64,000 nucleotides of DNA from Longimicrobiales bacterium (GTDB taxonomy: Bacteria; Gemmatimonadota; Gemmatimonadetes; Longimicrobiales; Gaopeijiaceae). Both the position numbers and the translations under genes were made by a program. Each line of letters starts with the position of its first letter. Positions within the stretch are counted from its first letter, which is position 1. The notes beneath the pieces were generated by a model, which saw nothing but the letters and a program-made list of their open reading frames with translations, was not told the origin of the DNA and did not search any database. Below, in pieces: positions 34,933 through 39,609 of the stretch. The DNA lies in NCBI GenBank assembly GCA_029245345.1, contig JAQWPM010000012.1, positions 744,001-808,000 of the forward strand, read 5' to 3'.

Positions 34933-35005
34933 TCCGGCGTAGCTCAGTTGGTAGAGCAGCTGACTGTTAATCAGCGGGTCACAGGTTCGAGTCCTGTCGC
35001 CGGAG
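34933..35005 (+). tRNA. tRNA-Asn (GTT)
   Basis: The 73-base cloverleaf has acceptor arms TCCGGCG/CGCCGGA, D-loop GCTCAGTTGGTAGAGC, anticodon arm CTGACTGTTAATCAG with anticodon GTT, T-arm CAGGTTCGAGTCCTG and discriminator G. No CCA is encoded. Confidence 0.97.
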
Positions 35006-35404: not shown

Positions 35405-36139
35405 TTACGGAAGTCGCGTTGCGATCCATGCCGTACGGTAGACCGCGGTGCCCACCGTGCCGATCGCTACAAGCGTGATCAAGCCGAACAAGACCGTACC
35501 GTCTTCCCAGCCCATGCGTGCAGACACGGCCGGGTCCAAAATGCCGCCGAAGCCCACAGAGAGAAGCCGCTCTGCGCGCTGCATAACGCCCTTTTTGCAC
35601 ACAACTCCCACACTCTCGCCACGGGCCCGCGCATAGCTCACCAAGAGCGAGCCCCCCAGGGCAGTGGCCACCAGGGCGACGGCGATGGCGGAATCCCGGA
35701 AGAGAACTGCGAGTCCGACGAACGCCCCAACCTCAGCAAACCGATCCAGGGTCGAATCAAGGAAGGCGCCGCGGTCTGAAGCGAGCCCCCGGGCTCGAGC
35801 GATCCGTCCATCGAAGACGTCAGCAGTGCCACCTAACAAAACAGCCCACCCTGCCAACACGACGTGTCCAGTCGCAAAGCCATATCCCCCCGCGATGCCA
35901 AACGCGACACCCAACACGTTGAAGGCGGTCGGGTGCAGACCCATCGCTAGAAAGAGCCTCTCAAGCGGGCCGATGAACCAATAGAACCAGGTTCGGATCA
36001 AACCCCCGAGAACAAAGCCGCCGCGGTCTCCGAGCTCCAGGGGATCTTCACGGTGCCGAGCTCCAGTAGCCGCGAACACGCCCATGGTCAGAAAGGCGAA
36101 TGCAAGAATGCTCACTAGCGCCATCATGTCGGTTCTCAT
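35405..36139 (-). CDS. CDP-alcohol phosphatidyltransferase
   Basis: A 244-residue membrane enzyme. The full family signature DxxDGxxAR(8)GxxxDxxxD is present: D107, D110, G111, A114-R115, G124, D128 and D132 in DVFDGRIARARG...RGAFLDSTLD. About six membrane spans surround it. It transfers a phosphatidyl group from a CDP-activated lipid to an alcohol; the acceptor (glycerol phosphate, inositol phosphate, serine) cannot be told. It overlaps the Tam41-like gene by four bases and is the last of a three-gene operon beginning with plsC. Confidence 0.9.
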   Translation of the reverse strand: MRTDMMALVSILAFAFLTMGVFAATGARHREDPLELGDRGGFVLGGLIRTWFYWFIGPLERLFLAMGLHPTAFNVLGVAFGIAGGYGFATGHVVLAGWAVLLGGTADVFDGRIARARGLASDRGAFLDSTLDRFAEVGAFVGLAVLFRDSAIAVALVATALGGSLLVSYARARGESVGVVCKKGVMQRAERLLSVGFGGILDPAVSARMGWEDGTVLFGLITLVAIGTVGTAVYRTAWIATRLP

Positions 36140-37104
36140 CGGGTGATCTCGCGAGAGGGGCGATTACGTAAGAAGCGGACAACACGGGGCCACAAAAAGA
36201 TGAGCGGCCACCGCCGTTCCAGCGCGGTGAGTTCGATCTTCGTTCCTGAATGCCGTTCTGCTTTTCGTACCAAATAGGGCAACCAGTTGTCGAAAGTTAC
36301 GATGTGCTTTAACCAACGTGAGGTCGCCCGGACCTTCGAACGCCAAAAATGTCTACGCCAACGTCGGGCAACCAATTCGCTCGCCGGAGCGACCAACGAG
36401 AAGCCCTCTGCGGACCGGACCATCAGCCCCGAGCGTTCCGCCCCGACGAGTACCGGACCGAAGACGGTTTGAAAGTGGTCCACCTGTGCATTGAAGATGG
36501 ATTCAGACCGGTTCTTGGCCTCAGGCCGGATCTCACCCTGGTAACAAATCTCCAACAGCCGTTGGCCCAGGCCCGCCCCGTCCACCGGCTCGGTCAAATA
36601 GGGCAACATCCAGTCCAACACCCGCCCATGCGCAGCTGAGACGAGGTCGTTCAGCCACGCCCGTTCTTCAGGCGTCGCCGCCCACACCTGCCCCACTCTC
36701 TGAACGAGTCGGCCCAACAGGAAGTGATCCTTAGGGTTCGGCCCGAGCGCCTGTTCAAGATGTTGCTTGCTCACAATCAGACACTTGGCGAGTCCGAGTT
36801 CCCGGTCGTCGGGCGCGTAAGCGATCGTATTCGGCGGCAGTACGTTCGCCATAGAGGACATCAGCCAAACCCACCGCCGCATCCCACCGGATCTCCGCAA
36901 AGCGGAGTAAAAGGCCCGATACGAGTCCACAACGACCATGAAATCGAATGCGCTATTTCGGTTGGGGTTCGACCCATGCAAGTGTGAACCATACAGAAGT
37001 ACCGCCCTGACGGAGTCCGACGTGTCCAGAACGAGACGATCTGCGAGGTCCCGAACCACAGGGTACCAAGGAGCATCCGCAGCTGGGTGGACGCCCGAGG
37101 TCAT
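36136..37104 (-). CDS. Tam41-like nucleotidyltransferase, candidate CDP-diacylglycerol synthase
   Basis: A 322-residue protein. Residues 35-60 read AVLLYGSHLHGSNPNRNSAF followed by DFMVVVD, similar to the YGSG...DFIxAVD catalytic core of eukaryotic mitochondrial Tam41, with acidic residues D54 and D60. Further on, LLEICYQGEIRPEAKNRSES then IFNAQVDHFQTVFGPVL matches the Tam41 pattern of Y.GDIR, a glutamate-rich turn and a final helix. Tam41 makes CDP-diacylglycerol from phosphatidate and CTP. Four-base overlaps with plsC upstream and a CDP-alcohol transferase downstream place it between enzymes that would make its substrate and use its product. The assignment is by motif and context. Confidence 0.65.
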   Translation of the reverse strand: MTSGVHPAADAPWYPVVRDLADRLVLDTSDSVRAVLLYGSHLHGSNPNRNSAFDFMVVVDSYRAFYSALRRSGGMRRWVWLMSSMANVLPPNTIAYAPDDRELGLAKCLIVSKQHLEQALGPNPKDHFLLGRLVQRVGQVWAATPEERAWLNDLVSAAHGRVLDWMLPYLTEPVDGAGLGQRLLEICYQGEIRPEAKNRSESIFNAQVDHFQTVFGPVLVGAERSGLMVRSAEGFSLVAPASELVARRWRRHFWRSKVRATSRWLKHIVTFDNWLPYLVRKAERHSGTKIELTALERRWPLIFLWPRVVRFLRNRPSREITR

Positions 37105-37874
37105 GCGACCGGCCCCCCCCGCATCTCTTGGAGCTTCTCCACCATGCTCTGCCGCAGTCCTTCGACAAACAGGCCAGCATCAGCTTTCGGGTTCGTCCAT
37201 TCGAATTCGCCGACGTATTCCATTCGCGCGTCCAGCGTGTCCATGCTTCCCAGGAGGTGCTTGAATTTGGCGTACTGCCAAAGGCCATCCACGACGAAGG
37301 CGTGGACCTTCCAAGTACGCGCACGCAGGATCAACCCCAGACCCGCCGGGCGGAACGGTCCGATCTCCCCATCCTTGGACCGCGTCCCCTCAGGATAGAT
37401 GAGGATAGGGACATCCGTTTCCCGGGAGATTTTTCGAAGCTGCTTGAGCATTCGTCGGGCATCCCCCGTGTTTGCTGAAGGGTCCACCCACGGGTATTGA
37501 TACAGCCTGCTCAAGTGCGATATTAGCGGGATAAAACGAGTGTAGCGGCGGCGGGTGACAACACGAAGGTAGCCGCTAGTGAGTGTCTTGACCCCGAGCG
37601 GAAGATCGAGCATCGACTGGTGGTTCATGACGACCAACACTCCAGGCTCGCACGGGATGATGCGATCCGGATGAGGAAGGGACGCACCTCCGATAACTTC
37701 GAAAGGCCTCGTCACAAGCCAGGCCAAGTACTGAAGCCAGGAACCCAACACGCTGATCCGGCTCTGGGGTCGAAGCCACAGCCATGGGCCGACCAAGAAA
37801 CGTTGGACGAGATCGGACAGCAGCATGCCCAGACAGGTAACGATCAGGGCCAAATAACCTCGGAGTAGCTTCAA
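37101..37874 (-). CDS. plsC: 1-acyl-sn-glycerol-3-phosphate acyltransferase
   Basis: A 257-residue acyltransferase with an N-terminal membrane helix. Catalytic block I is NHQSMLD (N84, H85, D90) and block III EGTRSKDGE at 162-170. A phosphate-binding YPWVDPSAN segment lies between. It adds a second acyl chain to lysophosphatidate, giving phosphatidate at the inner membrane. Overlap of four bases with the next gene makes it first of the lipid operon. It is divergent from the acetoacetate decarboxylase-like gene. Confidence 0.9.
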   Translation of the reverse strand: MKLLRGYLALIVTCLGMLLSDLVQRFLVGPWLWLRPQSRISVLGSWLQYLAWLVTRPFEVIGGASLPHPDRIIPCEPGVLVVMNHQSMLDLPLGVKTLTSGYLRVVTRRRYTRFIPLISHLSRLYQYPWVDPSANTGDARRMLKQLRKISRETDVPILIYPEGTRSKDGEIGPFRPAGLGLILRARTWKVHAFVVDGLWQYAKFKHLLGSMDTLDARMEYVGEFEWTNPKADAGLFVEGLRQSMVEKLQEMRGGPVA

Positions 37875-37984: not shown

Positions 37985-38662
37985 ATGGATGATCAAGGCT
38001 ACACCTACTACGGCTTCAAGAACTGTGTCGGAGGGTTCTTCGAGATGCCCACGTCGGACGCTCGCAAACTCCTTCCGAAGCACCTTGAGCCGCTCGAGAT
38101 GCAGCACGAGCGGAGCATCTTGGCGCTGACTTGCTTCGAGTTCACCGAAAGTGAAGTCGGGCACTACTTCGAGGTCGTCCTGGCCGTAATTGTCCCGCCC
38201 ATGGTTGAGCCGGGGAAGCCGCTCCCAAAGGCCGCGTTCTACCCGTTTTGCGTCGGGGTGACCAGCGCAGCCGCACGCGAACATGCAACAGAACGTTGGC
38301 ATCTTCCGCACTTTTTGGGAGAGCTCGACATCGCCATGAACGAGTTCGACGACCGCATGGAAGTCGAGGTTCGCGACGACGACAAGCCAGTGCTCGACCT
38401 CTTGGTCACAAAGCACAAGTACGCCCCCTCAAAAAACCTATACAACGCCTTTATGGTTGACGCTGACTCAGATCGAAAGTTCAAGGCCAACATTTACATG
38501 GGGGCCCCCCACTCCGAGCACGAAGAGGAGACGGGGTCGCTCACGCTTTACGAGCACGAGATGACGGCGGGTCTGACGATCGACGACGTCAACACGTACC
38601 CGTTCCGCGAACAGTGGTATCAGGCCGGCTTGCAGACCTTCGAGCCCTTGCTGGAGATCTGA
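37985..38662 (+). CDS. Acetoacetate decarboxylase-like protein
   Basis: A 225-residue protein of the acetoacetate decarboxylase-like fold: GFFEMPTSDARKLLPKHLEP near the N-terminus, ALTCFEFTESEVGHYFEVVL, and PPMVEPGKPLPKAAFYPF. A catalytic lysine in the classical position could not be confirmed, so it may be a non-decarboxylating member. It sits 5 bases before the lipid kinase start and is divergent from plsC, so a role in lipid or keto-acid metabolism is plausible but not shown. Confidence 0.65.
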   Translation: MDDQGYTYYGFKNCVGGFFEMPTSDARKLLPKHLEPLEMQHERSILALTCFEFTESEVGHYFEVVLAVIVPPMVEPGKPLPKAAFYPFCVGVTSAAAREHATERWHLPHFLGELDIAMNEFDDRMEVEVRDDDKPVLDLLVTKHKYAPSKNLYNAFMVDADSDRKFKANIYMGAPHSEHEEETGSLTLYEHEMTAGLTIDDVNTYPFREQWYQAGLQTFEPLLEI

Positions 38663-38667
38663 TCTCG

Positions 38668-39609
38668 GTGCCAGGCCACTTCGTCATTTTTAATCCCGCC
38701 TCGGGGCGGGGACGCGGCCGAAAACGCATCGCCGTCTATCGGCGTCTACTGGAAGCGCAACTCGACGACGTGACATTCGCAACCACAACGCGGCCCGGTG
38801 AGGAGCGGGAACTCACCGACCGTGCGGCAGGCGAGGGTTTCGACGTTGTTGTGGCGGTGGGCGGAGACGGCACGTGGAGCAACGTGGCAGATCGCTTGCT
38901 CAACCATGACCGAACTGATGTGGTGCTGGGGATGCTACCCAACGGCACGGGAAACGACTTCGGTCGCAGCCTCGGCTTCGACCCAATGAACGCGGCTGAA
39001 GCAGTGAACTCCCTGGCCAGTGGGAACCGGCGCCGTGTCGATGTAGGTCGCATCGACACGCCTACGGCCTCAGAACACTCGCCGGAGCAGAGCGAAGCCC
39101 GCCACTTCTTGAACCTGGTCGGCTTTGGTTTCGATGTCGCTGTGATCGACGCAGCGTCTCAGGCTCGGTTCCTCAAGGGCGAGCTGTTGTACAAAATCAC
39201 AGCGCTTCAGCAGCTCTTCAAATTCCCGGGAATCGACCTGGAGCTCGCGGCCGCCGATGGGACCGAGCGGTCCGGGCGCCACCTGATGTTGACGGTGTCA
39301 AACGGACGTTTCTTCGGCGGAGGCTTCCCGATCGCGCCCAAGGCGACTGTCGAAGACGGACTGCTGCACGCGTGCCAGATCCAAGACGCAGCGCCAATGA
39401 CCCGCCTGAAGCTCTTCAACATGGCGGAACGCGGCCGGCACGTAGAATCGGAACAGGTGGAGGTGCTCGACGACGCATCCTTCACCGTCACATTCCCGGC
39501 AGCTCCCCGCTTCGAGGTGGATGGGGACATTCGACGGGCTTCCGATCCATCGATCGTGATCCGTGCGTTACCTGCCGCTCTCGAAGTGATCGCGCCGCCC
39601 GTTCAGTAG
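38668..39609 (+). CDS. Diacylglycerol/lipid kinase family protein
   Basis: A 313-residue kinase of the DagK/YegS/NAD-kinase-like fold, starting at GTG 38668. Marks: IFNPASGRGRGRK at 7-19, ATP-binding VAVGGDGTWS with GGDGT at 65-69, GMLPNGTGNDFGRSL, and the C-terminal beta-sandwich with ENGRFFGGG-like SNGRFFGGGFPIAP. It phosphorylates a lipid such as diacylglycerol to phosphatidate, which would feed the divergent plsC-Tam41-like operon. The longer frame to 38614 is rejected because it overlaps the upstream gene. Confidence 0.88.
   Translation: MPGHFVIFNPASGRGRGRKRIAVYRRLLEAQLDDVTFATTTRPGEERELTDRAAGEGFDVVVAVGGDGTWSNVADRLLNHDRTDVVLGMLPNGTGNDFGRSLGFDPMNAAEAVNSLASGNRRRVDVGRIDTPTASEHSPEQSEARHFLNLVGFGFDVAVIDAASQARFLKGELLYKITALQQLFKFPGIDLELAAADGTERSGRHLMLTVSNGRFFGGGFPIAPKATVEDGLLHACQIQDAAPMTRLKLFNMAERGRHVESEQVEVLDDASFTVTFPAAPRFEVDGDIRRASDPSIVIRALPAALEVIAPPVQ

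Follow-up and report, generated by a model that had tools for sequence, protein, structure and literature searches.

The mitochondrial enzyme Tam41 has homologues in Firmicutes and Proteobacteria, and the bacterial version makes cytidine diphosphate-diacylglycerol (CDP-DAG), according to a passage of a review that cites Kimura 2022 (PMC11646218). The crystal structure and activity of the Firmicutes enzyme cited in that passage are published (PDB 7ecd). In Caulobacter, CC_1159-1162 encode CpgA, the ceramide kinase CpgB, CpgC and Spt. Loss of CC_1161 (CpgC) abolishes ceramide phosphoglycerate; its annotation hinted at a CDP-DAG synthase, and the authors proposed a nucleotide (nucleoside diphosphate, NDP)-activated ceramide (PMC11324152). 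CpgC is needed to convert ceramide-1-phosphate, by what a 2025 paper calls a 'yet unidentified mechanism' (PMC12275187). Here we describe an operon at 35405-37874 of a 64,000-nt stretch (the window) of contig JAQWPM010000012.1 from a Longimicrobiales bacterium of the phylum Gemmatimonadota, which encodes a PlsC-like acyltransferase, a Tam41-like nucleotidyltransferase (NTase) and a CDP-alcohol (CDP-OH) phosphotransferase of the phosphatidylinositol-phosphate synthase (PIPS) type. An earlier note on this window had treated Tam41 as known from mitochondria, which the bacterial enzyme of that review passage and 7ecd corrects. Bacterial Tam41 being already known, the present case stands out because a Tam41-like enzyme shares its operon with a PIPS-type transferase and has a link to an alpha-oxoamine synthase.

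We propose, with a probability of roughly 0.68, that the operon is a head-group module in which a kinase, a Tam41-type CDP-lipid-forming enzyme and a PIPS-type transferase would act in turn to produce an inositol-phosphate lipid, with a backbone that is likely ceramide-1-phosphate-like. The computed results are the Tam41 fold of the middle protein, the PIPS-type residues of the transferase, the conservation of the operon, the loss of ino1-linked PIPS and the co-occurrence with the oxoamine synthase; the catalytic steps and the lipid substrate are predicted from sequence and structural model. Specifically, the lipid kinase (38614-39609) would make a lipid phosphate, the Tam41-type enzyme (36136-37104) would convert this lipid phosphate and cytidine triphosphate (CTP) to a CDP-lipid and pyrophosphate, and the PIPS-type transferase (35405-36139) would transfer the lipid-phosphate group to inositol-1-phosphate supplied by Ino1. 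The backbone would most likely be the product of the alpha-oxoamine synthase cassette, and the PlsC-like protein would be an accessory acyltransferase. The genes concerned are as follows.

37101-37874, minus strand: PlsC-like lysophospholipid-type acyltransferase, 257 aa, TTG start; Pfam Acyltransferase 56.7 bits (cut-off 23)
36136-37104, minus strand: Tam41-like nucleotidyltransferase, 322 aa; NTase domain, winged-helix-like domain and strongly basic conserved C-terminal helices
35405-36139, minus strand: CDP-alcohol phosphotransferase of the PI-phosphate-synthase group, 244 aa; Pfam PF01066 CDP-OH_P_transf 47.6 bits (cut-off 22)
37985-38662, plus strand: acetoacetate decarboxylase (ADC)-like protein, a weak family match (PF06314, 28.3 bits vs cut-off 29.8)
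38614-39609, plus strand: YegS/DAGK-family lipid kinase, 331 aa; DAGK_cat 103 bits, YegS_C 93 bits

The structure of the middle protein was predicted with AlphaFold from 18 aligned homologue sequences (predicted local distance difference test, pLDDT, 86; predicted template modelling score, pTM, 0.85). The top match of the model in the PDB is Firmicutes Tam41 7ecd (Foldseek E 3e-9; VIA-align Z 21.7 over 244 residues, 3.0 Å), followed by yeast SpTam41 (6ig4, VIA Z 16.8; also 6ig2), which supports a Tam41 fold over both domains. The next family, the ANT/AadA aminoglycoside adenylyltransferases, matches the NTase domain alone, with Z 9.1 over ~119 residues. Sub-threshold Adenyl_transf matches are also found in 4 of the 18 members, and the middle protein could in principle be an antibiotic (aminoglycoside-type) adenylyltransferase, or another unrelated NTase, that stands in a lipid operon by accident. 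This is extremely improbable, given the far better match to Tam41 and a coupling to lipid genes that is conserved in dozens of genomes. The reading of the middle protein as Tam41-like in the earlier note is thus borne out by the match to 7ecd and by one orthologue above the Pfam Tam41 cut-off, and the comparison with yeast Tam41 that it proposed places the antibiotic enzymes far lower (Z ~9).

At the sequence level, the window protein falls under the curated cut-off of PF09139 (12.3 bits vs 24) and is consequently termed 'Tam41-like' and not Tam41. Its Pfam matches are all sub-threshold (Polbeta E 0.097, Tam41_Mmp37 E 0.11), and no NCBIfam model matches it over threshold. The earlier note had named the lack of a significant Tam41 profile hit as evidence against its own reading, and for this one protein that is formally the outcome. 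Among the 18 aligned members, orthologue L015 passes the Tam41 profile (33.2 bits vs 24) and another is just under it (23.2 bits). Over 298 genomes of the phylum, PF09139 gave 3 matches, all sub-cut-off and all operon members of one genus; the control genomes, including Caulobacter, gave no match either, so this search says little on absence. Because phmmer and profile searches against PDB sequences reached Tam41 only at E about 1, the fold comparison was needed. An hhalign comparison of the family with two Tam41 fragments gave E 6e-4 but a probability of 28%, and is weak alone.

Residues G39, S40, D54, K107, R132, E191 and R193 are invariant in the 18 Gemmatimonadota sequences and in four proteobacterial homologues, and the last four, which belong to the K, GR and Y-G-(D/E)-x-R elements, align with Sp and Firmicutes Tam41 (hhalign probability 28%). 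The motifs YGS...DFMVVVD and YQGEIR, as previously noted, are present. The C-terminal 80 residues contain 21 K/R versus 6 D/E, are predicted to be mostly helical and form the best-conserved part of the protein, which is compatible, in the model, with a membrane-binding region. The window protein shares with Tam41 (7ecd; SpTam41 6ig2/6ig4) the NTase and winged-helix fold, YGS, a single conserved catalytic-type Asp, the Lys, GR and Y-G-(D/E)-x-R elements and a basic C-terminus. It differs in being only ~12-15% identical and under the Pfam cut-off, in its operon setting with a PIPS-type transferase and oxoamine-synthase link, and in a C-terminal region strongly conserved within its own clade.

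The transferase carries the signature D107xxDG..AR..G124...D128...D132, and the full pattern Dx2DGx2ARx8Gx3Dx3D is complete in the window copy and in 23 operon homologues. In the mycobacterial enzyme MtPIPS, residues S132, K135, R155 and R195 bind inositol phosphate (PMC4634129). The corresponding residues of the window transferase are S168, R171, R191 and R235; the S, R, R, R set is found in all 24 operon copies, and the K-to-R replacement also occurs in the ino1-linked PIPS of the phylum. The three other CDP-OH enzymes of the source genome are without this set. The top PDB matches of the transferase are actinobacterial PIP synthases, and its top NCBIfam matches are archaetidylinositol-phosphate synthase (AIPS; 114.7 bits vs 180) and PIPS (87.2 vs 170). 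Because both cut-offs are missed, we label the protein 'PIPS-type', not PIPS. The window transferase resembles the actinobacterial PI-phosphate synthases MtPgsA1 and RsPIPS in its full CDP-OH signature and inositol-phosphate residues, and differs from them in a ~45-residue N-terminal extension and a score under the NCBIfam cut-off. In a tree, the operon transferases form a clade apart from the ino1-linked PIPS, with moderate support.

The same pairing of an NTase with a CDP-alcohol transferase is found in an alternative cluster of Bacteroides vulgatus, where it has been proposed to work by activation of the head group (PMC9246714). By analogy, the middle enzyme could be a CTP:inositol-1-phosphate cytidylyltransferase whose product, CDP-inositol, would be joined by the transferase to diacylglycerol or ceramide. 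We regard this as very unlikely: the substrate of the Tam41 fold is a lipid phosphate, the C-terminus is basic and of membrane type, the kinase partner would make a lipid phosphate, and the transferase retains inositol-phosphate acceptor residues that a CDP-inositol user does not need.

The surroundings of ino1 provide an independent sign of an inositol-lipid product of the module. The ino1 gene is present in 58 of 59 relatives (in the source genome as PF01658 at G000:C15, E 6.3e-33), and a PIPS gene lies 1.0-1.6 kb from it in 46. An ino1-adjacent PIPS is absent from 11 of 17 operon genomes versus 2 of 42 others (Fisher p 2.7e-6, from counts that ignore phylogeny). Of the latter two, G042 is without ino1; the other, G034, has 89% completeness and an operon-bearing sister genome. 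Apart from PIPS, synteny is kept at the ino1 locus (prfA-prmC-YlbF-like-[PIPS]-ino1-tmk, with gene names assigned from translations without a family search). In G000, G001 and G020 (L079, L080, L082), the genes on either side are in place and PIPS is missing from between them.

The arrangement of the operon in the window agrees with the previous description in its three leftward open reading frames with 4-base overlaps, both of which read ATGA (37101-37104 and 36136-36139), and in the two outer families, each above its Pfam cut-off; action of the three genes in pathway order, as suggested there, is plausible. The PlsC-like protein contains NHQSMLD, an NHX4D motif, and EGTR. Most homologous loci retain the order PlsC-NTase-CDP-OH, and nearly all retain the NTase-CDP-OH pair, which argues that the arrangement is not due to chance. 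The PlsC gene is absent or degenerate in several operon copies, and for this reason we consider PlsC accessory. In L012 (G028:C23, ~2460-2908), a PlsC-similar fragment alone precedes the Tam41-like gene and is perhaps a decaying copy. The divergent lipid kinase mentioned previously is real, passing both its Pfam cut-offs and TIGR00147 (YegS/Rv2252/BmrU lipid kinase; 141.8 bits vs 118.65), but the first divergent gene next to the operon is the ADC-like gene, which overlaps the kinase gene. A tRNA-Asn (GTT) gene lies just downstream of the operon (34933-35005).

Middle-protein homologues occur in 17 of the 59 relatives, and full-length ones in 49 of the 298 phylum genomes. In the named genome contigs, a search that reaches close relatives only, the sole relative is L001, a Gemmatimonadota metagenome-assembled genome; none was found in viral contigs. 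An SPT/BioF-type alpha-oxoamine synthase (SPT, serine palmitoyltransferase) is present in 46 of the 49 operon genomes versus 11 of the 249 others; counted by genus, the proportions are 20/21 and 5/98 (p 4e-17). In 20 genomes of 8 genera, operon and synthase are 1.7-2.3 kb apart. More distant relatives have, divergent from the operon, a gene set composed of a pyridoxal phosphate (PLP)-dependent alpha-oxoamine synthase, an ADC-like gene and a lipid kinase. In the source genome, the ADC-like gene and kinase stay by the operon, and the synthase is located elsewhere (G000:C17) beside a second ADC-like gene. The two ADC-like proteins of this genome (window 37985-38662; L131 6631-7293) are ~41% alike, and their family accompanies the oxoamine synthase and lipid kinase in relatives. 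The synthase/ADC/kinase cassette is also found without the operon, which makes the operon look like an addition that would modify the product of the cassette.

In Bacteroides, BT_1522-1526 encode myo-inositol-phosphate synthase (MIPS), PIPS, a PIP phosphatase and an inositol phosphorylceramide (IPC) synthase, a combination of inositol lipid and sphingolipid context that resembles the present one. A similar cluster exists in another Gemmatimonadota family of the same order, f2 (L149 G043:C119; L150 G039:C10). It combines a clearer SPT (540 bits vs BioF 407, still under the SPT cut-off) with an AUR1-like PAP2_3 protein, a GNAT acyltransferase and an epimerase, and seems to provide the type of route by which Bacteroides and yeast make inositol sphingolipids. 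Unlike these clusters, the operon genomes are without a consistent IPC-synthase-like gene, and a CDP-lipid route is proposed instead. PAP2_3 (PF14378) gave no match in operon genomes G001, G007, G008, G012 and G014, which rules out the IPC-synthase route as a general explanation of the sphingolipid link and fits the operon as an alternative route.

A plasmid search identified homologues of the middle protein in Roseomonas, Diaphorobacter, Qipengyuania and Pseudomonas (L154-L158), mostly annotated 'hypothetical protein'. The four proteobacterial homologues tested match the Gemmatimonadota profile with E values of 1e-31 to 5e-36, and all 22 aligned rows (18 Gemmatimonadota and 4 proteobacterial) share 18 invariant residues. 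On two Roseomonas plasmids, a CDP-alcohol transferase, a lipid kinase and the homologue come in this order; a divergent PLP synthase and an acyl carrier protein follow, and LptF/LptG permeases are encoded close by. The neighbouring synthase of R. marmotae is over the SPT cut-off (639 vs 500 bits). In Pseudomonas and Qipengyuania, the homologue is directly 3' of a lipid kinase gene. The Diaphorobacter lipid cluster lies on a conjugative IncP plasmid and adjoins arsenate and mercury resistance genes.

These homologues sit at the position of cpgC in Caulobacter cpgA-cpgB-cpgC-spt: they adjoin a lipid kinase gene, and those of Roseomonas additionally have a CDP-alcohol enzyme and SPT as neighbours. 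The Gemmatimonadota locus differs from that of Caulobacter in its PIPS-like transferase with inositol-phosphate residues, its divergent SPT/BioF-like synthase and the ADC-like gene of its cassette. By this analogy, we tentatively suggest, at somewhat less than even odds, that the Tam41-like enzyme may be a CTP:ceramide-1-phosphate (or similar sphingoid lipid phosphate) cytidylyltransferase, and that the PIPS-type transferase would use its CDP-ceramide to form inositol-phosphate sphingolipids, with no need for an IPC synthase; the missing CpgC step would rest on the same reaction. A search of 5.39 million papers gave no instance of the phrase 'CDP-ceramide', though a nucleotide-activated ceramide has been proposed for CC_1161.

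The source genome has one ordinary cdsA (E 8.7e-53), as have 58 of the 59 relatives, so the operon is an addition and not a substitute for CdsA. The previous idea of a self-contained phospholipid module does not stand, as cdsA is present and two ties had been overlooked, one to inositol phosphate and the other to the cassette of alpha-oxoamine synthase and kinase. The middle enzyme might nonetheless be a plain second CDP-DAG synthase acting on PlsC-made phosphatidate, and the transferase might stand in for the usual PI-phosphate synthase and make ordinary phosphatidylinositol phosphate. The established Tam41 activity, that of the bacterial enzyme included, is on CTP and phosphatidate (in the passage of PMC11646218 cited above), a second CDP-DAG synthase has a precedent in E. 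coli YnbB, and the PlsC-like gene in the operon, the PIPS residues of the transferase and the frequent loss of ino1-linked PIPS would all fit. However, cdsA is universal in the relatives (58/59), the module can do without PlsC, and the near-obligate link to oxoamine synthase, ADC-like gene and kinase, together with the SPT neighbours of the proteobacterial homologues, would be left unexplained. We therefore consider a plain second CDP-DAG synthase unlikely.

Several observations weigh against the proposed inositol-phosphate lipid module with a sphingolipid-like backbone. The main doubts concern the identity of the Gemmatimonadota synthase, its absence from three operon genomes and the PlsC-like gene. 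By its sequence, the synthase is not decisively an SPT: it is under every NCBIfam cut-off, and in G000 BioF (354.5 bits, cut-off 426) scores above SPT (339.4, cut-off 640). Operon genomes G123, G168 and G287 (85% complete) are without the synthase. In G168, the operon adjoins genes of alkyl-lipid type: divergent from the Tam41-like/CDP-OH pair (L121, G168:C3, 10300-14783) are those for an FAD enzyme of the alkyl-lipid-synthase type and for a fatty acyl reductase-PlsC-domain fusion, which suggests that the module has an ether-lipid form. The presence of the PlsC-like gene speaks for a glycerolipid, and six operon genomes retain ino1-linked PIPS. The proteobacterial CDP-OH neighbours are without the inositol-phosphate residues, so the head group differs there, and the connection to Caulobacter CpgC was drawn by analogy from gene order, not from CpgC sequence. 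Taken by itself, a ceramide-1-phosphate-like backbone is probable, whereas ordinary phosphatidate is a minority possibility.

If the proposed module is correct, a Tam41-type enzyme would activate a non-glycerol lipid as its CDP derivative, and bacteria would have a further route to inositol lipids. It would also offer a concrete, testable mechanism for CpgC. The bacterial Tam41 family would then have diversified towards sphingolipid head-group synthesis, which would bear on the origin of the mitochondrial enzyme.

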